This document shows positions 4,420-58,461 of a DNA stretch of 64,000 nt, piece after piece. This DNA is from Apostichopus japonicus. Taxonomy: Eukaryota; Echinodermata; Holothuroidea; Aspidochirotida; Stichopodidae. Location: positions 1,358,714 to 1,422,713 of the forward strand of contig NC_092567.1 of the NCBI RefSeq assembly GCF_037975245.1, given 5' to 3'. The translations under genes and the position numbers were made by a program. The notes below the pieces were generated by a model. The model did no database searches. It was not told the DNA's origin and worked only from the letters and a program-made list of their open reading frames with translations. Every line of letters begins with the position of its first letter. Position 1 is the first letter of the stretch.

Positions 4420-6931
4420 GAGTAGGTCGGCGTCTATCTTGGCGCAGAGTGCTCTATGTCCATTGGACAGAGCGTAATATATGTTGATACTAGATGAGAC
4501 TAGTGGAACACTAGTAGTTGTTACTCGGAGTTTCACGCGTTATAGCGATCTTCAGAGCGATCTTCAGCGATCTTCAGAGTTGTCTGAAGATCGCTATAAC
4601 GCGTGAAACTCCGAGTAACAACTACTAGTGTTCCACTAGTCTCATCTAGTATCAACATATATATATATATATATATATAGTTTGTTTTAAATTTTAATTC
4701 TTATTTATATGGATAGACACAAATCGTATCGAGTGGGACGGGCATTTTTGGAACCTTAGTATCTCAGCAACAGCATTTTACAGATGTGAAGACGGTAAAT
4801 ATACTAATTTATTGTAATTTATATTCAAAGGTAGTTTCAAATTAACGTTAAAAAACAAAAGAAATATATTACGACGATTAAGGAAACAAAAGCATTACTC
4901 ATAAATGTTAATAATGCTCGTTTGAATTTGGAATAGAATAATCTTTAGAATAGCTTCTTCTACAATGCTTACATTGGTTAGTTATATAATAAACAATGAT
5001 TGGATCGTATAAGACTTTAAATAATTCACGGGGTCATGCTATATTTAGGCAATTACGATATGCATGTTTTAGCAAAATACTTTCAACACGGTTTTGTTGT
5101 CGCAGCGTTGACAAAGACGCGTTCCTTTGTTAATATAACCCATAATTGGAAGTTTTCAGCGGTATTCGTTCCTTCAGTTAATCGTGAAACTACATTTGCT
5201 AAGCACTGACATTATCAACTGATCTTCAGTATGGGATAAATTTACAGATTATACAAAACACACAGTGGAATCGATACAATGTAACACGAGGTAGTTGTCT
5301 ACGACAGAGCGCCAAATTATATAAATGGTGATTCTCCTTACCGATACTAAAAGCCATTTAATTCTCCAAAATATCGGCCGCTACATGTGGTATCACAATC
5401 ATCTTCAGTGCACGCATTACTTACCTTGCATATATCACATAGCAAACTATAAACGACCCTGATTTGCTGTAAAGATCAATAAACAGTGTGTACTTAGACT
5501 TGCAGTGTGAACACAGTTCGACCAGTTCAAGCACGAGTACGAGTATGAGGACATTATCTATTTTTGTAAGGAAGGGATGAACTCGCAAGTACCCGTACGT
5601 TTTCTACACCAAATATTGGGGTCAACCGTCGGGGTAACCAATTTAGCACTATTCGCCTACAACAGTTAATACACTATAAATAATATCCCTATGTACAGAA
5701 CATATATATGGATGAGATAAAAATAAACTATATATACACAACTGATGTTAAGGTTATTATGTATATGATAAACTACAAAAAAGCGGAACGATTCATACAA
5801 GCTAGAGAAGAAATAAATTATGTTTAGAATCAAATGTGTGGATCACTGTTGAAAGGATTTGAGTAAACGTTAGGTCAAATTAATTAAAAACAAACAATAT
5901 CGCCATCAAAACATTTATTGCTAAACCTCGCAAACAATACCATTGCTATGATTTTGTTTTGTTAACCAGAGGTTCACCCTGATGAGCAACCTGGATTCTC
6001 ACGCTATCCGAAGTTGTGCTGTTTACGCGTTGCTGACACCAGTGAGAAAGTAAAGTGGCATAAAAACAACATCAACGTTGAAAGCGGTGACCATGTTGCT
6101 TGGCTCAACACCCTCGGCGGGTACTGGCATCATGCAATTGTAAAGGAGGTTTTAACTGGAGCCGAACCAAAAATAACTGTAATTGAGTGGTCTCGAAATG
6201 GTAGCACTTTTAAAATAAAAGAAGGGACTTTCAGTGAAGGTGACTGGCTTTCTCTTCGACGACCGATGTACAAAATTTTGTACCCAAGGACAGTTCTGAA
6301 TGAAAATCCAAGTACCATTGTTTTGAGAAGGGCAGTATCTTGCATGTCAAAACAAGATAGTTATAACCTAGTGACCAATAATTGTGAACACTTTGCAAGG
6401 TACTGTAAGACTGGGACGGGCTACAGCCACCAGGTGTTGCAAGGCTATGGCACATTAACTGTTTGGGCCATCCGAATTTTCCTAGATTTATTGAAATTAA
6501 TTGCATTTGTATTTTTCTCTGAAGTAGTAGAATCTTACACCAGTTGGTCATTTGAACAAGTTAGTATATTGATAATATTCGCTTTTGAATTTATTTACCT
6601 AATAGTGGCCGTGCATGTTATTGTTTTCAGAGATGAAAAATTGTCAACTTTACCGAAGGGTCAATACTGCTTTCCTATCGGTTGTGCAATTGGTAGATTA
6701 GCGGCCCGATCGGCAATTATATGGTTTTTCGCTAGCTTGTTTATGATTTATATTCCCCCATTGTTTGGTGAAATAGCAGATTGGGAGGAAATATTGGTGA
6801 GTACAGCTTTTGGTTTTTTAGGTGGTATAATAGGTGTTCTGGTATCTTACATTGCATTTTATTTAACACCATGTTGTATGTGTTATCATGAAAGAGGTAT
6901 AATTCAGAAAAAAGATGAAATAAGTGTATAA
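1..6931 (+). CDS. Gene 1: LRAT-domain membrane protein with tandemly repeated acidic linker exons (5' end outside window)
   Basis: Exons deduced from AG/GT borders and phase: 1-56 (partial), 229-339, 512-622, 796-906, 1080-1190, 1363-1473, 1647-1757, 1930-2046, 3324-3401 and 5970-6931. Every internal exon is phase 1 at both ends (seven of 111 or 117 bp, one of 78 bp), and the last exon accepts phase 1, so all join in frame. The repeated exons encode 37-residue Asp/Glu/Asn/Ser-rich segments that look disordered. The last exon encodes an LRAT (NlpC/P60-like) domain followed by about four hydrophobic segments and a short tail. Known LRAT-family members are thiol acyltransferases, phospholipases or proteases, often membrane-anchored. 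The substrate is unknown. The true start lies left of the window. The join from 3401 to 5970 is inferred from phase; small exons between may be missed (candidate 4768-4794, 27 bp, phase 1-1). Confidence 0.7.
2452..2580 (+). pseudogene. Decayed copies of the 37-codon exon
   Basis: Around 2452-2478 a tail resembling the exon 3' end (acttccgagggtaaatc) is visible. At 2503-2572 a copy of the exon 5' half (aatgaacagcgacgacttgg) runs into an in-frame TAA, and its acceptor is lost. These look like dead outer units of the array. Confidence 0.6.
2768..2887 (+). pseudogene. Exon-like segment with a lost splice donor
   Basis: A TCTTAG acceptor precedes 120 open bases in phase 1, encoding a hydrophilic stretch ending SQSELNK. 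This resembles the end of the exon at 3324-3401 (GQSEIKK). Where that exon has AAAG|GTAAAT, this one reads AAAG|TTAAAT, so the GT is gone. Shifting one base to use GTTAAAT would end in phase 0 and break the frame. Either a dead exon or one with an unusual donor. Confidence 0.45.
3324..3401 (+). CDS. Gene 1 linker exon, 26 codons, phase 1-1
   Basis: Bounded by TGCTTCAG and G|GTAAATC. It encodes an Asp/Asn-rich segment (DADDNDNSDAKR) ending QSEIKK. It keeps the phase of the array exons upstream and of the LRAT exon at 5970, so it can bridge them. Confidence 0.55.
4377..4420. repeat. AT microsatellite
   Basis: Imperfect (AT)n tract left of the long palindrome; a second AT tract lies at 4657-4678 on its other side. 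Confidence 0.9.
4477..4662. repeat. Perfect 80-bp inverted repeat with 26-bp spacer
   Basis: 4477-4556 is the exact reverse complement of 4583-4662 by direct reading. The spacer (4557-4582) holds short GCGATCTTCA direct repeats. AT microsatellites lie on both sides. It would form a long hairpin or cruciform. It lies in the intron between gene 1 exons 3324-3401 and 5970-6931. It could be a foldback transposon end or a collapsed inverted duplication. Confidence 0.95.
5970..6931 (+). CDS. LRAT-domain + four-TM terminal exon of gene 1
   Basis: The acceptor is TTTTGTTAACCAG ending at 5969. The reading frame from 5972 is open to the stop at 6929-6931 with no ATG at its head, as expected for an internal or terminal exon. 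Counting from the TTG at 6014: GDHVAW begins at residue 25, the catalytic-type His lies in YWHHAIV (His40) and the catalytic-type Cys in NNCEHFARYCKTG (Cys124). The second His of many LRAT proteins (VIH) is replaced by VIEW. Hydrophobic segments lie near residues 147-170, 183-205, 218-250 and 260-284, so the protein should be anchored in a membrane with a short charged tail. The domain call is firm; the exact enzyme activity is not. Confidence 0.85.
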
Positions 6932-10898: not shown

Positions 10899-11015
10899 AG
10901 TGTCCATAGCCTAGTGGTTGGGTGGTCCTATTATAACGCGTGAGGCCCGGGTACGAATCCCGGTGGAGGCTGGACGTTTGTTTACTATTCTGGATTTTCC
11001 ACCTCAAAACCATTT
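10899..11015 (+). mobile_element. tRNA-derived SINE (tRNA-like head 10899-10971)
   Basis: 73-nt tRNA-like head: near-complete acceptor stem (AGTGTCC with GGAGGCT, one mismatch), box A TAGCCTAGTGG, T arm CCGGG-TACGAAT-CCCGG with a perfect 5-bp stem. The anticodon arm does not fold and the T loop has TAC for TTC, so it is not a functional tRNA. The body after it recurs at 10600-10640. Confidence 0.55.
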
Positions 11016-13521: not shown

Positions 13522-16500
13522 ATGTCGGGGACAGTACCAGTGCCAGCTGAGACTTCATCTACAACTCATGGTGGACATCGTAAGTGACTTATTAGTTAGA
13601 AGATCTGTTTAATGAAGAATTCTTTATGTACCAATTATATATTAGAGCATAACTTTCTTTCTTTTTGCTAAATATTATGCAACGATATGATATTCTCCAC
13701 TTCTTGCTTGTTAAGTTTAAACTGTACATTTTGAAAATAAAACAATGAATCTCTAAGAACACTGGTTAAAATCTATATTGTAATATATAATGGATAAGCT
13801 CAAAATTCATTTTCCAAGTTGGAATTCTATTGTGTTTTTGAAAATTGACAGTGTTTGAAATATTATTAATTTTGAAACATTTTATTTGTACATTAATGCT
13901 GTTACTTTTTAAGAAACGCACGAAGATGGAGACAAATCGCAACGGCATCCTTCTGAACAGTTAAGTCATGGTAAGCTAGATCCAAATTGTTTTGTTCTCA
14001 AGAATTTGACATGTTATCACTTGTCTCAAACCCCGAACAGCACTTATAACCTTCCTGTCTGTCATTGGAATGTAAACATATGAAAAGTTTAAAGGTATAC
14101 AATTATACTAATGTACCACAAAATAAAAATTGATATCTATGTATGCCTATCTACAGCAGTAATAATGGATCCTACTTTACAACGGTGTTCAAAATATCGC
14201 GAAATCTCTCAAATCTTAAAACAAGATTGTTATCTGAACAACAACAAATATTTAGATTCTTATGCTCTGTAATACCGTAAATGAAAATAAAAGAACCACT
14301 GTTAAATGTCTTTGTAAGATTTTTTGATAGTCTGTTACAGTATAAACATATTTCAGAACTATGTTTAAATACAATTTGGATGCACAATTCCAAAGCTGAA
14401 GATTTTCTTGTTCGCCTTAAAATGATGGTTCTTTATTATTATTACAACTCTATAACAAAACAATTGGAAACTATTTTACAAATATTTTTAAATTCATGCA
14501 AATTATGAAGTGCCGAGATAACTTATTGATCCTCTGATTGTCAATTGCTCGTTACTCTCCATATACAGAAGGTTGGGCTGAATTCCTTGGTAAAATGGCG
14601 GACGAAATAGACCGTAAGACTGCGCAGTCACTTGCAACAATTTACCAGTTTTCAACAGCGGAAATTGAAGAAGAAATGCGTCCTGGTTACGTATTTACGA
14701 GAATGGTGGTTACGAAGGGTCATATCACTCCTAGTGACATTAGTTCTCTCTTGGAGAATCTAAGGAAAGTAGGTGGCAAAGGTCATGAGAGTAAAATAGA
14801 AGACCATTTTCAACGCGCTATGAAATCTTCCACAACCGTTGAAAGACGTGACGGTGAGTATTACATATACGATTCAAAGGAATGTGAACAATCTGAGTTA
14901 TAAAATTTGTTATAAAAACGAGATACGATAGGAAACAATATGCTTCATAATCACGGTAAAGCAACATAACGATTGTTCGACAATAATAGAAAATGCGCTA
15001 ACCTTTTTGGTTTCCATACCAAGCGTTCTTTAATTGCCTATTTGACAGATTACGGAGAATTAAAAGTGAATTTAATAAAAAGACTGGACCGTGCGACCCA
15101 TACAACGCAAATTCTCGCAATATACTTTGACATCCCACCTTGGACGTTGGGCCAATTACAGAAGGATCCCTCTCCGGGTTGCGTATTGGTCACGTATCTT
15201 GAGGAGATCCGTGTAATGTCCAAAGAGAACTCCAAAGAAGTGATCACCGCTTTGGAAAACATTGGTGCGACAGACATACTCAAGGAAACATTTGAACAAG
15301 ACCTGCGGAGTGAGGATGGTAACCTTCAAGGGGAAACTGACGGTACGTCACACAGTCACACAGTCACATAGTCACATATGATTTTCCAAGGGTATCATAC
15401 CATCATGTTCATTTCTTTGTGTGCGCTTGTGTGTTTTTCATTAGTCACATGTTCTTTTCATCATTGCTGAAACTGCATTTAAGTTAATTATGCTGATACA
15501 TACTGCACATTTGTTCTATGCAAATGTCTATTGGACTGAATCACTTCTCTGGTTAATATTAAGCATAAAATGATATTCCTATGTATTTATATTATCCTCT
15601 AAACTTCTCTGAGCATGTAAGCCGTTGTTACACCTATCATTCTTAATCATAGATCATTTATGCTTGTTCCAGTTATTCAATTTGTTACCAGTTTATATGA
15701 AATAAATAATTACCTTCAAGCGAGATACCTGCCTGAAACAGTAGAGTGAGTATAAAAATAGCTTTTCTATGTTTTTTGTTTAAAGTTTGCATCTAAGCCT
15801 CTCCTTTGTTAGATAAATATTCATTTTAGGATTAATCTTTCTTGTAAACCAAAAAAAGTTCCACATGTATCAGGAACGTACAACAATCGTATTTATCTCC
15901 TCGTGTTATTTCATGCAAGTAGTAAATTAACCACCGTAATTTATCTGAACGGTTGCTTATTCATTCTTGCAGAGAGAAATCCAAACGTTACTTCTACGGT
16001 GCAGATAGAGGACCCTCATAGCGTTGCGTCGACTCAAAAAACCATTATTAACAGTGTTAATAGCAGCATCAACTCTGGTATAACGATAGTGAGTATTTTA
16101 TCAAAGGGAAGGGGGACACCCCCTCCCCACTGAAAATGTTTTGCATTTCCAGGTGGACTTGGATGCAATTTGGTGCTCCAAATGATGTTTTTGTTTCTCA
16201 TTTGGAAATGAAAAAGGGGTTTTCTGACTTGCGAAGCGGTCGGGCGGAATGATACTTCCACCCCTCTTTATTTTTCACTGGGGAGCTGGCGCCCCCAGCC
16301 CCCGGTTCCTTCGTCCTTGGAATAAACAATACGAATAAACTGACCTTGCTCTAACCCAGTTTCTCTTCATTTTCATCATGTCATTATAATTGCGGTAAGC
16401 CTACATTACATAGATATGTGATGTACCGACTCAACTTACGCAAATGATAATCAACTTCAGTAATCATTCATACGTGATATATCGAGTTGAAGAGATTGTT

Positions 16501-18538
16501 TATTATGTACAATGAAAGTTTGACAGCCGCGTTGAATTAACTGACTAAGCGCATGGTGGACCGATTCACACAAAGATTACAGTAACTACTTTGAAACTTA
16601 AAGTATTGTAACACAGTAAAAACTGGATCTTGCTGATATATATGATAAATCGTTGGCATATGTCATTATGTTTACAATAAGAACTGAGAATATATGTAAT
16701 TCCAGCAAACGCATCAAACTGCATTTGTTGGAATTACACATATTCCCATATTTACTGTTCTCTGTGTGCATCGGAAACCATCAATGATAAATTATACTTT
16801 AAGTGAGTACCTGTTAGTTTCACAATTCCGTTGGACTAAGCAGTACTTAGTGTGTAAGATTCACTAGTAATTTAAATTTAGTGAGCTTGAGTCATGTAAA
16901 ACAAAATTGTTCTTCTAATCTTTTCTTTTTAAAAAAAAACAGTGGTTTAAGTTATTCCAGTAGTATTTCAGAAGCACATATAATGTACAACAATTTCAAA
17001 ATATGTGTCACGGTATGATTTTTCTTTCCATTCATTAGTTAACTTAACTAAATTTGTTTCTTACTTTCTAGACGGAACAGTCTCCCAAGTTTGAAATCCT
17101 TCAAAGCAGGCCTAAAGAAGATACATGTGTTTGTAATACTGGCGACTCCCGCAGATTCAGAAAATATTACTTAAATAAAAGTGTTGTAGGAGCTATTTGT
17201 AAGACGTGCGGAAAGGAATGGTTACAGAAAATGTTCCTTAGAGACCTCGCCACTACGCGAGAGATATCTGTTGATGGTCAACCGCTTTGTCTTCGAAGAT
17301 GTTCCATTAATATTTCAGAATCTTTGCCCAGCGAGAATGACGGAGATTGTTCAACATTCAAAGTAGGCGATCTCATTAAATGGAAATCAGATGAACACCA
17401 TCAAAACTTAAATGCTATTATAGAATCTATTGACACGGACGAAAACGTGTCGCTTATTGTCATTGAAGCGTCCCACTTTGGTCAAATTAAGATTTATAGA
17501 GAAGACAATTGTCTATCAAAATTTAACGATTTACATGCCATTACTTATGAGAGAAATGGCGAAGTACCAGACTTACCAGATTTGGTAAGGGCACGGGCGC
17601 TTGCATGGTGCACTGGTGATTCATACATTTCCAACATATTCCTTACTGAAACCATGAGGTTTATAAAGTACTGTAAGTTTGGTTCAGATTTGCAATGGAG
17701 GGTGATGGGGCATGTAGGTGAGGTAGTTACAAATGCACTAAAGAACACGCTAGGTTCTACATGGGTTACTGGAAGAGAGGAAAAAGATCCTTTCTCATCG
17801 GATAGAAAGTATTTTGCACCAGATGTTCATTCTGGAATCTATATTATAATTGCCGATTCAGCATTCACATTTCAGCTCAACGAGCGTGACACACACACAA
17901 CAACAGAACAAAACCTGTTTAGGTCATTTTGTACAAATTTCTCAAAATGTTTGTCTTACCACAACTTCCTGGTTTATGAGATGCTCTCTGAAAGACCATG
18001 GGCAGAGGAAAACTGGTATGTCAAACTGCGTCTAACGGATATGGTCGTCCCAATTCTGATCAAAAGTATTGAACAAGAAACCCAATCTCCTCGAACTTCT
18101 TTTAACCCTCTTGCATCAGTTGTCGGCCATGCTATTCATTTGACAATGAAAAAGACCGACGAAGAAGTCCAACTTAATGAATTACTACCCGGTGATCATA
18201 TAGTCACCTCACATACTACTCTCCATCCTCGCTGTCACGCCATCGTTGCTTCCGTAAACCTACAAATGGGACAATTAGGATTAATTCGTAATGTTTTCCC
18301 TGGCCGTATCGTGGAAAGAGTAGAGAAAGTTTCACCTCCAATTTTACGTGTAGTTTACAACAAAAGTGACATCTGTTCTCCAGATGAAGTCATCCAAAAG
18401 GCTAGATCTGAACATGCTAGAAAAAAACATTTATACTACAATATTCTGACGAACAATTGTAAACATTTTGCTGTTTGGTGTAAACGCAAAACGGATGAAA
18501 CTAGTAAATCGCGCTCTGAGAGTAATGAGTCTCCCTGA
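13522..18538 (+). CDS. Gene 2: DED-DED-LRAT(degenerate)-LRAT fusion protein
   Basis: Six exons: 13522-13579, 13914-13970, 14569-14853, 15049-15342, 15973-16088 and 17072-18538. Donor phases 1,1,1,1,0 match the acceptors and the sum is 2277 bases, 759 codons with stop. Exon 1 starts at an ATG (13522). Exons 3 and 4 each encode a death-effector-like helical domain (about residues 40-125 and 135-225). Exon 5 is a Ser/Asn/Thr linker. Exon 6 holds a Cys segment (CVC...CKTC), a degenerate LRAT domain (about 367-474; His to Asn, Cys to Thr) and an intact-looking one (about 644-745; HAIV His659, NNCKHF Cys733). DEDs recruit partners in cell-death and innate-immune complexes. LRAT folds are thiol acyltransferases or hydrolases. 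The combined role is inference: a death-fold scaffold carrying a thiol enzyme. No membrane segment was seen. A non-coding first exon may exist. Confidence 0.82.
14569..14853 (+). CDS. Gene 2 exon 3: first death-effector-like domain
   Basis: 95 codons, phase 1-1, acceptor ATATACAG and donor G|GTGAGT. The pattern EGWAEFLGKMADEIDR ... LATIYQF ... FTRMVVTKGHITPSD ... SSLLENLRKVG ... KIEDHF fits a six-helix DED with the conserved 'xxLxxxGxIxxxDxxxLxxLLxxxG' core. Without alignment the choice of DED over another death fold is a pattern call. Confidence 0.7.
15049..15342 (+). CDS. Gene 2 exon 4: second death-effector-like domain
   Basis: 98 codons, phase 1-1, acceptor TTTGACAG and donor G|GTACGT. 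It has the same helical layout as exon 3 (GELKVNLIKRLD ... ILAIYFDIPPWTL ... LVTYLEEIRVMSKENSKE ... ALENIGATDILKETF). More diverged than exon 3. Two phase-1 domain exons side by side suggest exon duplication. Confidence 0.6.
16108..16322 (-). mobile_element. Copy of a GC-rich short TIR element in gene 2 intron 5
   Basis: Reverse complement of most of the element at 37325-37690: shared blocks ggacaccccctcccc, gcaccaaattgcat (as complement), aaaaaggggttttctgactt and a terminus ggttcctNcgNccttgg. It starts only some 20 bases after the splice donor at 16088. The left end is truncated. Confidence 0.65.
16688..16746. ncRNA. Short intronic hairpin, 22-bp stem, 15-nt loop (miRNA-like or tiny foldback)
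   Basis: GAATATATGTAATTCCAGC... at 16688-16709 pairs with 16725-16746 with one mismatch and one G-T pair. Outer AGAAC/GTTCT pairing may extend it. The size suits a pre-miRNA, but a small inverted-repeat element is equally possible. Confidence 0.3.
17072..18538 (+). CDS. Gene 2 exon 6: Cys segment and two LRAT-like domains
   Basis: Acceptor TTACTTTCTAG, phase 0; 488 codons to the stop at 18536-18538. The head has four cysteines as CVC ... CKTC, a possible metal site. LRAT-like domain 1 begins GDLIKW. Where the second domain has HAIV it reads NAII, and where the second has NNCKHF it reads TETMRF, so catalysis is not expected. LRAT-like domain 2 begins GDHIV, has CHAIVASV and NNCKHFAVWCK. Its third catalytic position reads LIRN rather than the usual VIH. 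Confidence 0.8.
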   Translation, partial: TEQSPKFEILQSRPKEDTCVCNTGDSRRFRKYYLNKSVVGAICKTCGKEWLQKMFLRDLATTREISVDGQPLCLRRCSINISESLPSENDGDCSTFKVGDLIKWKSDEHHQNLNAIIESIDTDENVSLIVIEASHFGQIKIYREDNCLSKFNDLHAITYERNGEVPDLPDLVRARALAWCTGDSYISNIFLTETMRFIKYCKFGSDLQWRVMGHVGEVVTNALKNTLGSTWVTGREEKDPFSSDRKYFAPDVHSGIYIIIADSAFTFQLNERDTHTTTEQNLFRSFCTNFSKCLSYHNFLVYEMLSERPWAEENWYVKLRLTDMVVPILIKSIEQETQSPRTSFNPLASVVGHAIHLTMKKTDEEVQLNELLPGDHIVTSHTTLHPRCHAIVASVNLQMGQLGLIRNVFPGRIVERVEKVSPPILRVVYNKSDICSPDEVIQKARSEHARKKHLYYNILTNNCKHFAVWCKRKTDETSKSRSESNESP

Positions 18539-36310: not shown

Positions 36311-36810
36311 AATATTCATCTAGTACGATAGGCATTTTGAAGCAGGTCATGGGCTACAGTTTGTTGATATAGTGCACTCTTCTTGAAAGACGGTCCAACG
36401 TGACTGTTTGTCATCATTCTATAGAAAAGTTCCAGTCGTGCACTTCCCCACGCATGAAGCGCGCAAAACGTTACACTTCGTTCTCGACAAACGACTCTTT
36501 CTCCCACTTTAAATTCTTTGGTGTATTTTTGATAAGATGGAAAATGAAAGACATTGTTTCCATGGATATATCACAATTTGTAGTTTGAACCCGGGTAAAG
36601 TGGAATCGTCGTGTACAAGATGTGAGACAGTTGCCGAACGCCTGCCTCCTGCGCTGTCTCCACCAACGGCAATACGACGAGGAAGCCACTAAATACTAAC
36701 CCCTACAGCGGGTCGGACCATTTCGAGTGCCCTCGGAACTCGGTTTCGGGTGCAACTGTGCTCGGTGCTCTCGATTCCCGAATTACGTTATTTTGCATGT
36801 TTTTAAGAAC

Positions 36811-37870
36811 CAGGTCTCGGAAGTTAGTTGACTCTATGTAATAACTTGTGAGGCCTGCTACTCGAGATAAAGATAGACATAATAGCGGTTCGAAACGGTA
36901 CTTGAAGTTTTTAAAATGATATATGTATACAACCAGGTCTTGGAGGTTAGTTGACTCTATGTAACAACTTGTGAGGCCTGCTACGAGATAAAGATAGATA
37001 CAATAGCGGTTTGAAACGGTACTTGAAGTTTTTAATATGATATATGTACACAACCAGGTCTTGGAGGTTAGTTGACTCTATGTAACAACTTGTGAGGCCT
37101 GCTACGAGATAAAGATAGATATAATAGCGGTTTTAAACGGTACTTGAAGTTTTTAAAATGATATATGTACACAACCAGGTCTTGGAGGTTAGTTGACTCT
37201 ATGTAATAACTTGTGAGACCTGTTACTTGAGATGAAGATAGATCTAAACGTTTGAAGTGAATTTTGCAGCTTTTAAATTTGATATTTGTACACAACCAGG
37301 TCTAGGAGGTTAGTTGACTCTATACAAGGGCGTAGGAACCGGGGGGCTGGGGGGCGCCAGCCCTCCCCCAGTGAAAAATGTGGAGGGGCGGAAGTATCAT
37401 TCCGCCCCCCCGGTTCGCAAGTCAGAAAACCCCTTTTTCATTTCCAAATGAGAAAAAAAAATCTCATTTGGAGCACCAAATTGCATCTAAGGCCAGGTGA
37501 AAATACAAAATTAAGTTTACAAAATGGAGTGGGTGTTGAAGTGTGCTATATTGCACCAAATTGCATCTGAGGCCACCTGGAAATGCAAAAAAATCCAAAG
37601 GGGAGGCGGACACCCCCTCCCCTTAGACCCCTCCCCCAGGCTGACCATCAGTCTTCAGCCCCCCCACTCAAAAGTACCTTCCTACGCCACTGACTCTATA
37701 TGTAATAACTTGTGAGACCTGTTACTTGAGATGAAGATAGATATATGGGTTTTAAACGGTACTCACAGTTTTTAAAATGATATATGTACACAACCAGGTC
37801 TTGGAGGTTAGTTAACTTTGTGTAATAACTTGTGAGACCTGCTATACTTGAGATATAAAGATAAATACAA
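36811..37870. repeat. 121-123 bp tandem array, interrupted by an insertion
   Basis: caggtctNggNggttagttg recurs at 36811, 36934, 37055, 37176, 37297 and, after the insert, at 37796. Units carry aacttgtgag and gataaagatag blocks. Confidence 0.88.
37325..37690 (+). mobile_element. 366-bp GC-rich TIR element nested in the tandem array
   Basis: TGACTCTATA flanks it at 37315-37324 and 37691-37700. Ends: caagggcgtaggaacc at left and ttcctacgccac at right, inverted over GGCGTAGGAA apart from one base. A related copy lies at 16108-16322. Confidence 0.78.
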
Positions 37871-43929: not shown

Positions 43930-45500
43930 TCACGCTTCAATGTCTTTGTTTACATTGTCGCAAGAAGTTAGAATGTCGTTTCCTTTCAAGACGTAAATGT
44001 ACAATAGGCTTATGCCCGATACTATCGATGACTTCGAAGCAAGCAGTAAAGAAAAACGGATTCCGTGAAATCTTCTTATTCACAAAAGGTTGCTTACGAT
44101 TATACTCGCAAGAGATTTCTTGCTGAAAGTTGTCTCCCTTTACAACTATATTCGATGCAGACGATCGTGAACTGCGATTAAGCCTGAAATTTCAACAAAC
44201 AATACCTATACACATTTCAAGACCTTTTTGAATGAGGAAGGGACAACACTTATTAAGTCAAACACGTTAACTACATGTGACTTTTCTTTTATAGGCATCT
44301 GAATGGCTGGAAATCGCACAGTAATTCTAAACCCGAAACAGAATTCATAGGGTTTTGAGTTTATGCAAGTAGATTTGGGAACTTACCAGGGATCGGGAAT
44401 TCGTCAACTACAAGACTTTGTTTAGTCCGCAGTGACTTGTTGTGTTTATTGATCCTCTGAAACTACGGTATTTGCGTGTGTACCCCTCCGCCCCCCCCCC
44501 CCCACCCCTCACCGCATGATTGTGTTTCACACATATACAGAAGTGTGTATTTAGTTTATTAAAAATATTATAATTATCTTTATGAATATCAAATTTTGAT
44601 CTATATCAGCCAACGTTGTTTACCATTGTTTCATTTTGGAAGGCTGAATGGTAATGAGGAAGGGAATGTGACGAGGACGGGCTTTGCATGTTTATAGCTT
44701 TGATATGTGCAATACATTTTGTCAACACTTTGACATGGTCGACTCTATCAGCAGCTAAAATCTCTATAAAACATAAGTTATAGGAGGCAATAACATCCAT
44801 TCAAGGTCGTAGCTACTCTCCTTTCACCGCCCCCTCCTTCTCATTTCATTTGCCAATAGGTTACCGAACCATGAAAATTGAATCTTAGATCTCTATAAAA
44901 AAGATATAAACTGACGGAATAAAAATTAAGTATCTCCCTCCTTTTGATTTGAAAAGAGGTATTTGCGTCACCTCTCATAGAGTGTGGGTTTGAAATTATT
45001 GAAAATAGAACAACAAAATACTAGTCTTTCATCAGAACTCTGCTTTAATTTATGATGTGTCTTTCATCCAGAACTCTGTTTAACTCTGTTTAACACAAGA
45101 TGTTGTGTCATTGAAATATGCGTGACATGACAATCATGTTCCAGCATGAATGGTATAAACGTAGCTCAGTCATTTGGGTAACCTTATGTACGTAACCAAG
45201 GTATCGTCTTGTATTCAGATCTGATTTTGCCATTGGGTAACAAGCAAATGTGTCCCGCTCACTTCATACAGTTTGGCGCAAATATATCTTATTATCAAGA
45301 ACATGCAAAATTGAGTGGGACCATATTCAATTAGACTATGGGCCAATGGAGACACCCCCTAACTAACTTTAACTTCATCACCTCACCCAAATTTATTCAT
45401 GGAACAAATTTAATCTTCAACAAAAGAACATCATGTTACAAAGTATTGAAGTGTTTAAAGTGTCAAAAGGAAGGAAGAACCAATGAGAACATGAGAACTA
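43930..45500. other. Intergenic, no gene recognised
   Basis: C-run at 44490-44504; otherwise AT-rich without recognisable coding sequence. Confidence 0.45.
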
Positions 45501-45507
45501 TAGAAAC

Positions 45508-47230
45508 ATTCTTTGTAACACAACAGTCACTAAAGTTTTATTTTTAGATTTTTCAAGTGCTTTTAATATGGTTTTACCAAATCGGTTAATCCAAGGTTTG
45601 TGTAGTTTTATCGATGAGCCAGGGCTTATACACTGGTTGGCTAATTTTTTACAAGGATGGTCCCGACAAGTCAAGCTACAGAAAGGTTACTCAGAGGAAT
45701 CAAATATTACAGTGGGAGTCCCCCAGGGAGGTCCTCTTTCTGCGTTACTTTTGACAATATACACAGATGATATACGTTCTTCTCTGGGGTGTAATGTAAT
45801 TAAGTACGCTGATGATACAGCTATATCCCGTAACATTTCAAAACGGAAACACCTTGAAAATCAAAATGACTATAAATCATGTATTGATAAAATGGTCAAT
45901 TTGTGTGAGCAGAAGGACCTCTTACTTAATCCTAAGAAATCTAAAGAAATAATTTTTGAAAACATTAACATTAAACATCAAGGTCTCATTCAGACCAGGG
46001 ATCAGGAAACTTATGTTCAAGGCTCCATCGTGGAGCGGGTAACTTATACTATATACTTAGGAGTTGATATTGACTGCCAAACTTATCTTCAAGCAAACTA
46101 AGGTTACACATGTTACCCCTCTCCTTAAAGCATTACACTGGCTTCCAATTGAAACGCGTATACATTACAAAGTCCTTATTATAATCCACAATTGTATTTA
46201 TAATCATTTATCTCCAAACTACCTTTCAGAACTTCTAAAAGTAAAGCAATACAAGCGTGCCACCCGTCAGTCAAAATGTATTACCCTTCCTAAACCTAGG
46301 ACCAATGGGGTTACTTATGCCAACCGTGCTTTTTCAGTTTCCTGGTCCCAAATTGTGGAATTCCCTCCCAAACCATTTAAAATGTGTACCTAATTAATCA
46401 CTTTTCAAATCAAAACTAAAAACCTTCCTCTATGCTAAACATTTTTCAATTTGATTTGTAACTATATTTCATTGTTGCATTATTATTTTTGCTTTTCGTT
46501 CTATTCATATTTATATGTATGGCGCTTTTGATAACTATTTTGTTTATAATTAGCGCATGATAAATCTTAGTTATTATTATTATTATATTGACGCCAAGTT
46601 AACCTTTACTAAACATATATCTAAAACGATGTCTAAGGTGTATTATATTGTATCAACGTTGGCATACATTACTCCTTATTTTCATTCTAATGTAAGAGAT
46701 GAGGTTTTTAACTCATCAATTCTGCCAGTTGTCGTGTATGCAGTTCCTGTCTGGTATCACCTTCTACTTGAAAAGGACAAGACAAGAATCAGAAGTTTCT
46801 TGAAGTACTGCTCAAATATATTTAATCTCGACTATGAAAGCCTTGTTGGTAAAGTAAACACTTCTGCTAAAAATGAATTCATAAGACTAGCTAAGAATAT
46901 ACATAGTTCTAAAGATCACCCACTTCACTCCGAGTTGATCTCTCTGTGCAATAAAACCAACAAGTACAATCTAAGTAATCCTACTATCTTGCCATCTTTT
47001 AGAATTATGCTTTTTAAGAACTCATTTATCTACAGAGCAGCCATTTATATTCGAAATGGGTTCTTAGAATCTCTGTTATAATCCTTTTAATCTTTAAAAC
47101 TTCTAATCCTCCATCTTATTTCTCTTTTTTTTGTTAATGCTTTCATGTTTGTACATGTTTACGTCTATTATGTATCATTCTTATGTGTCCTATTTATAAA
47201 TTTTATAGTTTATACTGGAATAAAGAAAAA
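45508..47230 (+). mobile_element. Non-LTR retrotransposon (CR1/L2/Jockey-like), 5' truncated, interrupted by another LINE
   Basis: Reverse transcriptase motifs in order: FLDFSSAFN (motif A, about 45542-45568), GVPQGGPLSALL, then KYADDTA (catalytic YADD), KDLLLNPKKSKEIIF and YLGVDID. The frame breaks at about 46080, where foreign sequence enters, and resumes at 46586 as IDAKLTFTKHISK ... LPVVVYAVPVWY, with a stop at 47079-47081 and an AT-rich 3' tail. The endonuclease domain is absent. Motif A has Asn after Phe where Asp is common. Confidence 0.85.
46081..46584 (+). mobile_element. 3' end of a second LINE, nested
   Basis: Encodes HVTPLLKALHWLPIETRIHYK ... NYLSELL ... NRAFSV, the known C-terminus of CR1/L2-type ORF2, followed by a 3' UTR (ggcgctttt...) ending in (TTA)n. 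The flank ATATTGACTGCCAA (46067-46080) is repeated as ATATTGACGCCAA (46585-46597), a target-site duplication with one indel. Confidence 0.82.
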
Positions 47231-47679: not shown

Positions 47680-48936
47680 TTATAAAACTGTAATTTCGTC
47701 ATCTTCAAGATCGTCTTGCTTTTCTACAGACTTTTTCTGGTTCGAGGTTTCAGAAAAGGCCAAATAGAGCGGGTTATCTTGCATTTCTGTGTCTTTCGAA
47801 ATAACTTCAGTTTTCACATCATCCTGGTTTGAAATGGGAATATCCTGCACATTTTGGTAAAGACGCAATTTAACTATGATAACGACTAAGACGAAAGTAA
47901 TTACTCCCAACACTGTAGTACATGTTATCAACACAACACTAACTGACTTAAAATCAGACGGAGATGGCACTGTTTCCTGTTGGCCAACATCACGACGCGC
48001 AACAGCAACCACGTGGGCCCGAGTGTCGTAAGATGAACATTTAACTGTATGAATACCATTACCACCTATTACTGCTTCAGCTAATCTGAGGCTACTTTCA
48101 CCAGCAGTTTGTTTAATGGTTACGTTCAAGCTCGCCTTCATCGTGTGGGTTAGCTCGTTGAAGTTCATTATGTTACCATTGGCTCCAATGATTGTCCAGT
48201 ACGTCAATCGAGGAGGCAGACTTTTACAGACAAAAGTCAAGTCCTCCAAATCTTCGTCAGTGAAGTTATCGGGTGAAATAGCAACTTCCAGCTCTCTTAA
48301 AATCTGCATAGGCGACGTGTGTTCATTTGAACAACCTAATTGAGTAAAGTTATAGGGAAGTGTAACCTCGTGGAATGAAAAAAATATCCCCTTTTTGTTT
48401 TGCACGTTTCTAACGCAAGTGATTAGAACATTTTCTCCGTAATATCCCAATTCACCAACACTAGACATTACAGGATCGTAGCGAGTGTCTATTTTAGTTA
48501 TATTTACAGTAGTTTCTGATTCGAACAAAATCATCACGACTCCTGTAGAACTGGATGTTTTCCTTGACTCGAATCTTTGACGACAAGTGAACATTCCAAG
48601 GGGATCAATCTTTGTAGCAGTCTTGCTTATCCTGTTTTCTAAAATTTCCTCAGCTTCAATCTCGTCCGAATGGTTACGAAAGAGTGTCAGATTGGAAGGA
48701 AATGGTAAAAGAGAAACGCAAGTAATCCTTACCTCGGGGTTATTCCGTTGCTTCGAACCACGCAAGACGTAATTCCTGACCCCGTTTACTATGCGCTTGA
48801 TACCAACGTTGACGTCCAGTGTTATTTGGCCATGGGATGGCACAGTGACTACAGTTAACAGGTTAAGCAAGAGCAGAGTGCAGATAATGCGATTGTTAGC
48901 TGATCTATCCATCATAGGTCTGTATGAAGCGAACAT
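47680..48936 (-). CDS. Ig-like type I transmembrane receptor, single exon, intact
   Basis: 418 codons. Signal peptide about residues 15-36 (the core CTLLLLNLLTVVTV); the ATG at residue 8 or 9 could be the real start. The ectodomain has Cys pairs consistent with Ig-like modules (C73/C118, C174/C202, C237/C300) and several N-glycosylation sites. The membrane-proximal module has PPRLTYWTIIGANGN and VKCSSYDT, both conserved in the paralogue at 55900-57117. Membrane span about 332-356. The cytoplasmic tail is acidic with an NPLY motif (388-391). NPxY motifs in other proteins bind PTB domains or drive endocytosis. Ligand and family name unknown. The coding region shows no intron. Confidence 0.78.
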   Translation of the reverse strand: MFASYRPMMDRSANNRIICTLLLLNLLTVVTVPSHGQITLDVNVGIKRIVNGVRNYVLRGSKQRNNPEVRITCVSLLPFPSNLTLFRNHSDEIEAEEILENRISKTATKIDPLGMFTCRQRFESRKTSSSTGVVMILFESETTVNITKIDTRYDPVMSSVGELGYYGENVLITCVRNVQNKKGIFFSFHEVTLPYNFTQLGCSNEHTSPMQILRELEVAISPDNFTDEDLEDLTFVCKSLPPRLTYWTIIGANGNIMNFNELTHTMKASLNVTIKQTAGESSLRLAEAVIGGNGIHTVKCSSYDTRAHVVAVARRDVGQQETVPSPSDFKSVSVVLITCTTVLGVITFVLVVIIVKLRLYQNVQDIPISNQDDVKTEVISKDTEMQDNPLYLAFSETSNQKKSVEKQDDLEDDEITVL

Positions 48937-48999
48937 ATTACTCTATCTTTACACAGTGTCAATGGTTCACTAACGATGATATCAAGGAACTGTAACAAC

Positions 49000-53929: not shown

Positions 53930-54880
53930 GAACCTAATAACATCACAGAAAATTTTCCAGAACGTTACAGAAGTATAAAAAACATCACAGTTACATACAC
54001 GTATACTACATGTGATAGCACCAATCCCTTATATGTAATATAAATTTTTGAAAAAGTTTCCTTTTTCAAACAAACCTATTAAAAACAAGACAGCCAAACC
54101 TTGCACATCCTACTTTCACACATTTTTTGTTTTTGTTTTTACGAACATATAAGTAATAGAAGAAACAGGAAATTGTCCAGAATGTTACAGAAGTATAAAA
54201 AACATCACAGTTATATACACGTACACTACATTTGACAACACCAATCCCTTATTAATAATAGAAAATTTTGAAAAACTTTAAATTTTCAAACAAACATTCT
54301 ATTAAAGACAAGACAGCCAAACCTTGCACATCCAACTTTCTCTCTTACACATATTTTTTTCGTTTTTACGAACATATAAGTAATAATGGAGAGACAGGAA
54401 ATTGTCCAGAACGTTACAGAAGTATAAACAACATCACAGTTATATACACGTATACTACATGTGATAGCACCAATCCCTTATTAGTAATAGAAAATTTTGA
54501 ACAAGTTTCATATTTCAAACAAACCTTCTATTACAGACAAAACAGTCAAACCTTGCACATCCTACTTTCACTCTTACACATATTAGTTTTGTTTTTACGA
54601 ACCTATAACTAATAGAGAAACAGGAAATTGTCCAGAACGTTACAGAAGTATAAACAACATCACAGTTATATACACGTATACTACATGTGACAACACTTAT
54701 TAGTTATAGAAAATTTTGAAAAAGTTTCATTTTTCAAACAAACCTTCTATTAAAGACAAAACAGCCAAACCTTTCACATCCTACTGTCACTCTTACAAAT
54801 AATTTTTGTTTTTACGAACATAAAAGTAAAAGAGAAACAGGAAATTGTCCAGAATGTTACAGACGTGTATAAAAAGTATA
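53930..54880. repeat. Tandem array, unit 217-229 bp, about four copies
   Basis: gtccagaaNgttacag recurs ending near 53970, 54190, 54419, 54645 and 54862. Each unit also has acatcacagttatatacacg and agacagccaaacc. One + frame of each unit encodes a similar stretch (NITVIYTYTT), but units carry stops and clear splice sites were not found, so it is treated as non-coding. Confidence 0.85.
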
Positions 54881-55319: not shown

Positions 55320-55900
55320 CACAGTATAGATTATTCATACAGAAAGCTGGTATAGTCTGTGAGTATAGCATGGCGATATCTTGTGTACTAAATAACTATA
55401 ACAAGACATGTATTGTAGAGACAAATGACGTCATTGGACTTAATGATAGCCCTCAAACCTCATCTTTCAATGTTAATTTGCATACAACAGATATTATTAC
55501 ACAGTGGGCTAAGCATATTGGCTATTTCGTAAGAGGCATGTATATGGGCCTATATGAGGGTAAATCCTGACTTCTCTCCCTCTCTACATATCTCTCTAAC
55601 TTCTCCCAGTGTTGGTCTGTATCCATGTATGACTGTTTTCCGTCCTGATGGGAGGCCTCATCATATGTCTCTGTGCGTTGAAACGCAGAATGGAATATGA
55701 TGTCATTCATGTACCACCTTCAATGTTCCAATATGCATAAACATCGGTTTGAAGCCCTTGACGTTGGGTTATTCATTTGTGAAATTTGACGTCATCTGCT
55801 TTATATTATAATACCATTACATGTTGATCTATGTTAACATGCATCTCTCTTCCTCTTTTTCTGCTGTTCCTTTATCCAATGAAGAACGATCTACCACATT
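55320..55900. repeat. Segment duplicated at 62930-63598
   Basis: Shared blocks: cagaaagctggt, cttgtgta-taaata, gacaaatgacgtcattggac and gaagaacgatctaccaca. It lies 3' of the receptor gene in both places, so the duplication carried gene and flank together. Confidence 0.75.
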
Positions 55901-57117
55901 TAAATATTGTGTAAGTCTATGTCACGTGATGTCTGTGACGCATGATTGTTGGTGGCTCGCTTTAACTTTCCACATAAGAGGATTAGAACGATGATTATAA
56001 TACAGACAATATACGTCAAAGTAACAATGAATGCTATTAAGATAGCGTAGGTTGTTTCCGTAGTTGCCTCCGTTGAATCATTTAGCGTAACAGTTGTTTT
56101 CACATCATTGTCTTCTGTGACTACTCTGTGTGACGTAACATTCACCTGTGCCAATGTATCATAGGAAGAGCACCTCACTTCCTGTATATCATTACCACCA
56201 GGAGATGCTTCTATAATGTTTAGTATAGTCTCTCCTGGTCTCTGAGTTATGGTGGTATTTATGCTTACCTTGATGACATCATTGGAACTATAGTCGAGAA
56301 TGTCACCATTGGCTGTTATAATAGTCCAGCGCATCAAACGAGGTGGATCACTGGTGCAACGAAACTCCATTGATGCAGCGTTACTTGTAAAATTGGAGGG
56401 TGTCAATGAAAGTTGCAGTTGATTAGTTATGTTTAAGTTGAGAGATAGTGATACACAGTCCTGATAGATGTTTCTTAAATTGATGAAAGGATTTTCTATA
56501 CTTAAATAATATCCCCATTTGCACCTGACGATCCTCTGACTATTGCTAGGAACATGGGTCATTGATGTTGATGACAGCTTTGGTTGAAATTTGCATTTCG
56601 AGTAAAATATATCTACCTCGGTACAGGTTATTGATATCTGTTCACCAGCATAAACCCTCGAACCAACGCTCGTAGAGATGAACTGCTCTTCTGGAACAAA
56701 TTCAACTTCAACTTCACTGTTAATGGTGGTGCGAATTCGTATTTTGTCTAGGAGATAACTTTTGTCAAATAAAGCACGAAAAGTATATTTCTCTGTTCCG
56801 GCACTCACTGTGGATAATCTGTTTGACCACATAATGTTATACATATTACTGTCATCTACATTAATCGCGTGGAGTATTTGACGATTTTTCAAGATAAATA
56901 CCTCTTCAGGACGAACGAAAGCATAATTCAGTGCACATTTGATCAATCTGTTCCGTGAATCAGATCCAACAGCAGTTTATTGCCATACCCCTGATTTGAC
57001 AACGTTACTCCCTTGTACCTGTACGTCTATGGTAGCCACTATTCCTTCCGCAAAGGGACAAATGAGACAAAAAGTCAAACTGAAAAGAATCCCAACATTA
57101 GTAAGAAAGCCGGCCGT
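55900..57117 (-). pseudogene. Ig-like receptor paralogue with start loss, in-frame stop and truncated tail
   Basis: From 57117 the minus strand encodes a signal-peptide-like segment (AGFLTNVGILFSLTFCLICP) headed by ACG, not ATG, then IDVQVQGSNVVKSGVWQ and a TAA (56979-56977). The same frame reopens and runs 348 codons from 56946 to 55900. It has Cys108, the membrane-proximal module (PPRLMRWTIITANGD, VRCSSYDT), a membrane span about residues 299-325 and only about 22 cytoplasmic residues. The tail lacks the NPxY region of its neighbours. Counter-view: a shorter product could start at an internal ATG (residue 35) and lack a signal peptide. Confidence 0.6.
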
Positions 57118-57787: not shown

Positions 57788-58461
57788 TATCTCGGTTTAT
57801 CTCGGCAAAATGTTAAGATTCAGATATTTGTTACTTTGATGAGTTATTGTATCTCGGTAAAACGTCAATTTTCAGATTTTTGTCAGTTTGACGACTTGTT
57901 GTATCTCGGCAAAACGTTAATTTTCAAAATTTTGTCATTTTGACGACTTGTTTTATCTTGGCAAAACCATAATTTTCAAATTTTTGTCATTTTGACGACT
58001 TGTTGTATCTTAACAAAACGTCAATTTTCAGAGTTTTGTTATTGTGACGACTTGTTGTATCTTAACAAAACGTCAATTTTCAGAGTTTTGTTATTTTGAA
58101 GAGTTATTGTATCTCGGCAAAACGTCAATTTTCAGGTTTTTGTCAGTTTGACGACTTGTTGTATCTCGGCAAAACGTTAAGATTCAGATTTTTGTCATAT
58201 TGACGACTTGTTGTATTACGGCAAAACGTCAAATTTCAGATTCTTGTCAATTTGATGAGTTATTGTATCTCGGCAAAACGTCAATTTTCAAATTTTGTTA
58301 TTTTGATGAGATATTGTATCTCGGCAAAACGTCAATTTTCAGATTTTTGTCATTTTGACGACTTGTTGCATCTCGGCAAATTTAATAATTTTGTCGTTTT
58401 GACGAGTTGTTAAACTCGGCAAAACTTCATTTTTCTGAATTTTGTCATTTTGACGAGTTTG
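57788..58461. repeat. 52-bp minisatellite, about 13 copies
   Basis: ttgtatctcggcaaaacg ... tttttgtcattttgacgac units; starts at 57851, 57903, 57955 and 58007 show an exact 52-bp step. Confidence 0.9.

Follow-up and report, generated by a model that had tools for sequence, protein, structure and literature searches.

We describe a six-exon gene on the forward strand (13522-18538) of a 64,000-nucleotide stretch of Apostichopus japonicus DNA, referred to here as the window. The encoded protein of 758 amino acids carries two LRAT copies, the first without and the second with the catalytic His and Cys, and it has no strongly hydrophobic stretch. Our best explanation, which we favor tentatively and rate somewhat short of even, is that this is a soluble animal protein that belongs to the LRAT branch of the NlpC/P60 superfamily and in which copy 2 would be the active enzyme, copy 1 its inactive partner, and two N-terminal modules the means by which the protein may be recruited to a membrane.

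Gene structure and predicted transcript

Rebuilding the gene from the window sequence yielded a single reading frame of 758 codons plus a stop, distributed over six exons (Table 1). This bears out the six phase-consistent exons and the 758-residue frame proposed by the first-pass annotation, as AG or GT stands at each of the ten splice borders, giving GT-AG introns, the phases fit, and the frame is open to its stop codon. Splice sites were scored with a simple hand-set consensus, and the five donors and five acceptors were ranked among the 3865 GT and 3387 AG sites of the window, respectively. Exon 6 alone holds an open frame of 488 codons, for which the chance expectation is approximately 1e-10 at the base composition of the window, and of the 56 candidate exons of 20-400 nt that contain no stop and would connect exon 4 with exon 6 in frame, exon 5 ranks second. 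Based on the open frame, the splice-site ranks, the chance expectation for exon 6, and the linking rank of exon 5, the gene itself is real with high probability, and one predicted transcript common to all six exons is likely. Two other readings of the locus were rejected: exon 6 as an independent gene, since its first in-frame Met falls downstream of the Cys-rich segment and starting there would lose that segment, and a pseudogene, since the frame is intact across 758 codons.

Table 1. Exons of the 758-residue protein and segments encoded by exon 6 (window positions; splice-site ranks as percentiles among all GT or AG sites of the window).
Feature	Position	Strand	Start phase	Acceptor percentile	Donor percentile	Remarks
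Exon 1	13522-13579	+	0		94.0	Start ATG; polar N-terminal tail
Exon 2	13914-13970	+	1	86.4	99.6	57 nt, phase 1-1; polar/acidic linker
Exon 3	14569-14853	+	1	94.5	99.9	Phase 1-1; N-terminal module 1, ~95 aa, putatively death-fold-like by eye
Exon 4	15049-15342	+	1	84.9	99.0	Phase 1-1; N-terminal module 2, ~98 aa; matches bacterial Death-like domain 3 below the cut-off
Exon 5	15973-16088	+	1	98.6	95.9	Ser/Asn-rich linker; puts exon 6 in frame
Exon 6	17072-18538	+	0	98.3		Includes stop codon; Cys-rich segment, LRAT copy 1, middle region, LRAT copy 2
C-x-C ... C-x-x-C segment	17126-17209	+				Residues 289-316, read from the translation; possible metal site
LRAT copy 1	17366-17680	+				Residues 369-473; Asn384 for the catalytic His, Thr464 for the catalytic Cys
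Middle region	17687-18190	+				Residues 476-643; no family match above cut-off
LRAT copy 2	18191-18487	+				Residues 644-742; His659 (18236-18238) and Cys733 (18458-18460) kept

The Cys-rich segment noted previously is present as letters in the translation, although it matches no Pfam family. Likewise, no Pfam family exceeded its cut-off in the middle region, whether the whole protein or the pieces 17072-17800 and 17660-18160 were searched. The mean hydropathy of the protein does not exceed 1.02 in any 19-residue stretch, compared with four stretches above 1.6 in the product of the neighboring LRAT gene described below, and the protein seems, judging from its sequence, to be soluble and to lack an evident transmembrane anchor.

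Two LRAT copies, one with catalytic residues

Copy 2 is matched by Pfam LRAT (PF04970) at 28.3 bits (cut-off 24.3, E 2.4e-6) when the whole protein is searched and at 31.0 bits (E 3.4e-7), again over the cut-off, when it is searched alone, with a match that covers only profile positions 77-116 of 120, i.e., the last third. In alignments, copy 2 retains the GD motif, the catalytic His659, and Cys733 of an NNCKHF block, the closing block reading NNCKHFAVWCK, and none of 2000 shuffles reached its score against the LRAT domain of the neighboring gene. The second LRAT domain that had been proposed for exon 6 is thus confirmed, both by a profile match above the cut-off and by the retention of His and Cys. 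In the available part of the relevant source, the Cys of the NCEHFV motif is described as the nucleophile and a Cys-His-polar triad as the pattern across the superfamily (PMC10102619), and the available part of another places LRAT among circularly permuted NlpC/P60-like enzymes (PMC10318531).

In contrast to copy 2, copy 1 had no Pfam LRAT match, either in 17072-17800 at E up to 10 or alone at E up to 1, and this half of the claimed LRAT pair is supported by likeness to the LRAT domain of the neighboring gene (26% identity over 136 columns; E 0.005 or 7.7e-4 within the window, depending on the direction of comparison; score reached by 0 of 2000 shuffles). Compared directly, copies 1 and 2 were not significantly similar, as 371 of 2000 shuffles reached the score. 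The replacements of both catalytic residues (Table 1) are read from the aligned columns, and the loss of the Cys is firmer than that of the His because two other His residues stand 4 and 5 residues ahead of Asn384. A PLAAT3 row was misplaced in its N-terminal part in one alignment, and the first His was therefore positioned without it. With Asn in place of the His and Thr in place of the Cys, copy 1 is probably a pseudoenzyme, so that the protein probably has one thiol active site rather than two; two working LRAT active sites were rejected on the same grounds. The thiol active site postulated by the first-pass annotation therefore probably stands for copy 2, whereas the loss of both residues from copy 1 had been missed.

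Do the N-terminal modules adopt a death fold?

Exons 3 and 4 had been assigned to DED-type modules, an identification that rests on pattern reading and gained no firm support, since neither Pfam nor searches of PDB sequences and of structures returned a significant match and the profile scores were marginal. Whether the query was the whole protein, exon 3, exon 4, or the two exons joined, Pfam listed neither DED, DD, CARD, nor PYD at E up to 10, in a range where the HMMER filters drop most matches above 0.1. We also built DED, DD, CARD, and PYD profiles from human sequences and scored them against 5000 shuffles of each exon, again with marginal results that named no subfamily. Exon 3 scored 1.7 bits with DED (189 of the 5000 shuffles reaching the score), 0.7 with DD (474), 2.9 with CARD (77), and -0.8 with PYD (1531); the corresponding values for exon 4 were 2.6 (153), 0.4 (733), 0.2 (885), and 5.8 bits (15). 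The CARD profile for exon 3 and the PYD profile for exon 4 thus did better than DED, and even the 15 of 5000 for exon 4 is not strong because eight tests were made. For comparison, left-out members scored 20-63 bits against their own family profile for DED, DD, and PYD, and -0.8 to 27.3 bits for CARD.

An earlier six-sequence DED profile, which included c-FLIP DED1 (left out of the later profile and of the hydrophobic-pattern tests), gave scores that were reached by 37 (exon 3) and 97 (exon 4) of 2000 shuffles, and hhalign to a DED alignment returned E 0.17 and 0.13, respectively, with probabilities below 1 percent. Testing the hydrophobic pattern of the last three helices also gave a negative result, with 2738 of 5000 shuffles reaching the score of exon 3 (0.342) and 479 that of exon 4 (0.450). 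On the same scale, the best of 40 unrelated frames reached 0.507 and the best of 32 LRAT-coding tiles 0.471, while 4 of the 40 unrelated frames scored at least as high as exon 4.

The best hint of a death-like fold is the sub-threshold match of exon 4, searched alone, to bacterial Death-like domain 3 (bDLD3, PF20690; 13.7 bits, cut-off 27.1, E 0.065, profile positions 2-69 of 73), which ranks behind the unrelated family HisG_C (E 0.044) and is not listed by Pfam for the joined exons 3 and 4 or for the whole protein. Alignment-free structure prediction gave a pLDDT of 38 with no residue above 50, and structure searches with so poor a model, which returned no significant match, weigh neither for nor against the fold. 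In this low-confidence model (pLDDT below 50 throughout), exon 3 forms helices at 2-13, 16-26, 39-48, 55-67, and 74-86, a five-helix spacing that presumably fits a death fold. Exons 3 and 4 appear only doubtfully related to each other, as their scores were reached by 348 and 391 of 5000 shuffles locally and by 194 and 182 of 5000 end to end. Overall, we consider the chance that these exons encode a death-like fold to be about even or a little better, and that of a DED in particular to be lower.

The neighboring LRAT gene and the rest of the window

Upstream of the six-exon gene, the same strand carries another LRAT gene. Its LRAT exon (5966-6931, +; Pfam LRAT E 2e-9) is a single open frame that encodes one LRAT copy, in which the catalytic His and Cys are kept according to the alignment, followed by four predicted membrane spans. 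Upstream of this exon, a 283-bp tandem array that is cut by the window edge occupies positions 1-2011 in the region 1-2046. It comprises seven complete exons, six of 111 nt and the last of 117 nt, all open and of phase 1-1, and another that is cut by the window edge; they encode polar, acidic peptides of 37-39 residues. Judging from strand, order, and phase, the array exons probably belong to this LRAT gene and form a variable linker in it.

It is a serious possibility, although again one below even, that the 758-residue protein is a lineage-expanded member of the LRAT family, the N-terminal exons of which encode a different small domain, or linkers that evolve rapidly, unconnected to death signaling. 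The array of short phase-1 linker exons in the neighboring gene suggests that gain or change of exons ahead of the LRAT exon is a local habit, and the absence of a significant death-fold match for exons 3 and 4 points the same way. However, exons 3 and 4 are each approximately 95-98 codons long and of phase 1-1, exon 4 has its sub-threshold Death-like match, and the spacing of the five exon 3 helices in the low-confidence model presumably fits a death fold. Should the N-terminal modules prove to have another fold, the gene would count as a moderately unusual LRAT-family member. In a tblastn search of the window, neither exon 3 nor exon 4 had a significant second copy.

Elsewhere in the window, two frames on the reverse strand (47680-48942 and 55900-56976) are related to each other (32% identity over 198 aligned columns, E 8e-25); by eye they resemble cell-surface proteins that carry a hydrophobic stretch close to the C-terminus, and neither has a Pfam match above the cut-off. 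Retroelement pieces lie at 45487-47081 (+): positions 45487-46101 encode a reverse transcriptase domain (PF00078, E 6.5e-16), and another frame (46554-47081, +) has only a sub-cut-off match. A weak Rfam tRNA match at 10900-10971 (+; 31.7 bits, cut-off 29) is absent from the ARAGORN output and is perhaps a tRNA-derived repeat. Further tandem arrays are found at 36808-37323 (period 121 bp), 53945-54875 (229 bp), and 57798-58456 (52 bp).

Proposed function

In the explanation that we favor, a soluble protein with one active LRAT copy, Cys733 of copy 2 would attack the acyl ester of a membrane lipid with the help of His659; most likely, Cys733 would take the acyl group, and the chemistry would be that of a phospholipase or an acyl transfer as in LRAT/PLAAT enzymes. 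Copy 1, without Cys and His, may serve as a structural or lipid-binding partner. The two modules of approximately 95 residues, most likely death-like helical bundles, would bind a partner or self-assemble, and recruitment driven by them could carry the active copy to the membrane. Such recruitment would be needed because the protein seems to lack a membrane span; PLAAT4 carries its own (PMC10102619, available part). According to the available part of another study, mitochondria to which PLAAT, an LRAT-type enzyme, is translocated by chemical induction become deformed, an effect that depends on phospholipase activity, and mitochondria with PLAAT brought to their surface lose luminal proteins (PMC9338259). 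Since translocation by a chemical dimerizer suffices to deform mitochondria, N-terminal assembly modules might be a natural way to the same effect.

It is rather doubtful that the protein is a death-fold-assembled lipid enzyme, in which two death-like modules would nucleate a complex that delivers one active LRAT copy, braced by its inactive twin, onto membranes. If it were, cell-death or immune signaling would end in direct lipid remodeling instead of a caspase, and a natural gene coupling a PLAAT-like enzyme to an assembly module would link a death-fold complex directly to membrane damage. Regardless of the death fold, a single chain that holds one seemingly active LRAT copy and one inactive copy offers a testable pair.

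We consider it improbable that the protein is a scaffold, the LRAT copies of which both lack useful catalysis and bind only lipid or protein. In most PLAATs, a second His lies 12 residues after the first. Copy 2 has no His at this place, 12 residues past His659, where the loop aligns poorly, and the lack of a clear second His, together with the loss of His and Cys from copy 1, would be consistent with a scaffold. However, copy 2 retains GD, His, and the Cys of NNCKHF, and the third triad position varies, the second His being replaced by Asn in PLAAT1 according to the available part of the source (PMC10102619). Slightly less probable still is a model error, either a fusion of exons from two genes or a wrong exon 5, with the N-terminal modules and the LRAT exon belonging to separate products: the 983-nt intron preceding exon 6 does contain two AATAAA words, and a linking candidate of just 35 nt outscores exon 5, but exon 6 opens right at a well-ranked acceptor (98.3rd percentile), the first Met in its frame lies past the Cys-rich segment, and exon 5 brings the frame back into register with splice sites at the 95.9th (donor) and 98.6th (acceptor) percentile.

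Comparison with known systems

Among the matches listed in our literature search, the coverage of which leaves out most subscription journals, no paper described a DED-LRAT or death-fold-LRAT fusion, and none paired an LRAT domain directly with a death effector domain; we do not claim absence from print. Domain recombination involving DED, DD, and CARD is known for the innate-immune genes of amphioxus, and that text contains no LRAT (PMC2575513).

Exons 3 and 4 resemble the modules of DED proteins (FADD, caspase-8, c-FLIP, and PEA-15) in size and, by eye, in the C-terminal half, and they stand in tandem like the DEDs of caspase-8 and c-FLIP. However, they have no significant profile match and a negative pattern test, and the effector that follows is LRAT instead of a caspase. 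The PF20690 domain, with which exon 4 aligns below the cut-off, is prokaryotic; the available part of the paper that named it lists other effectors, and LRAT or NlpC is absent from its main text.

The neighboring gene shares with the 758-residue protein the strand, a similar LRAT domain, and phase-1 linker exons ahead of it, and differs in its single LRAT copy and its four predicted membrane spans, of which the 758-residue protein has none evident. The GD motif, the His, and the NC-x-H-F block of copy 2 are also those of the LRAT/PLAAT (H-REV107) family (PF04970). Unlike members of this family, the 758-residue protein has two copies, the first without catalytic residues, carries N-terminal modules, and has neither a C-terminal membrane span nor a second His 12 residues on, at the PLAAT spacing.

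Four LRAT loci were also found elsewhere. Three of them (L001, L003, and L004) were read and two (L001 and L003) aligned, while L002 was left out. The three that were read encode stand-alone LRAT-like proteins on viral contigs, with the block NNCEHFAVWCKTG or NNCEHFAVYCKTG. L001 and L003 are single-domain proteins of 188 and 183 amino acids with nearly complete Pfam LRAT matches (E 6.2e-22 and 1.1e-25, respectively), thus differing from the protein described here. In the alignment, they share GD, HW, and NNCEHFAVWCKTG with copy 2 at 30 and 33% identity, and their closing block reads NNCEHFAVWCK, against NNCKHFAVWCK in copy 2.
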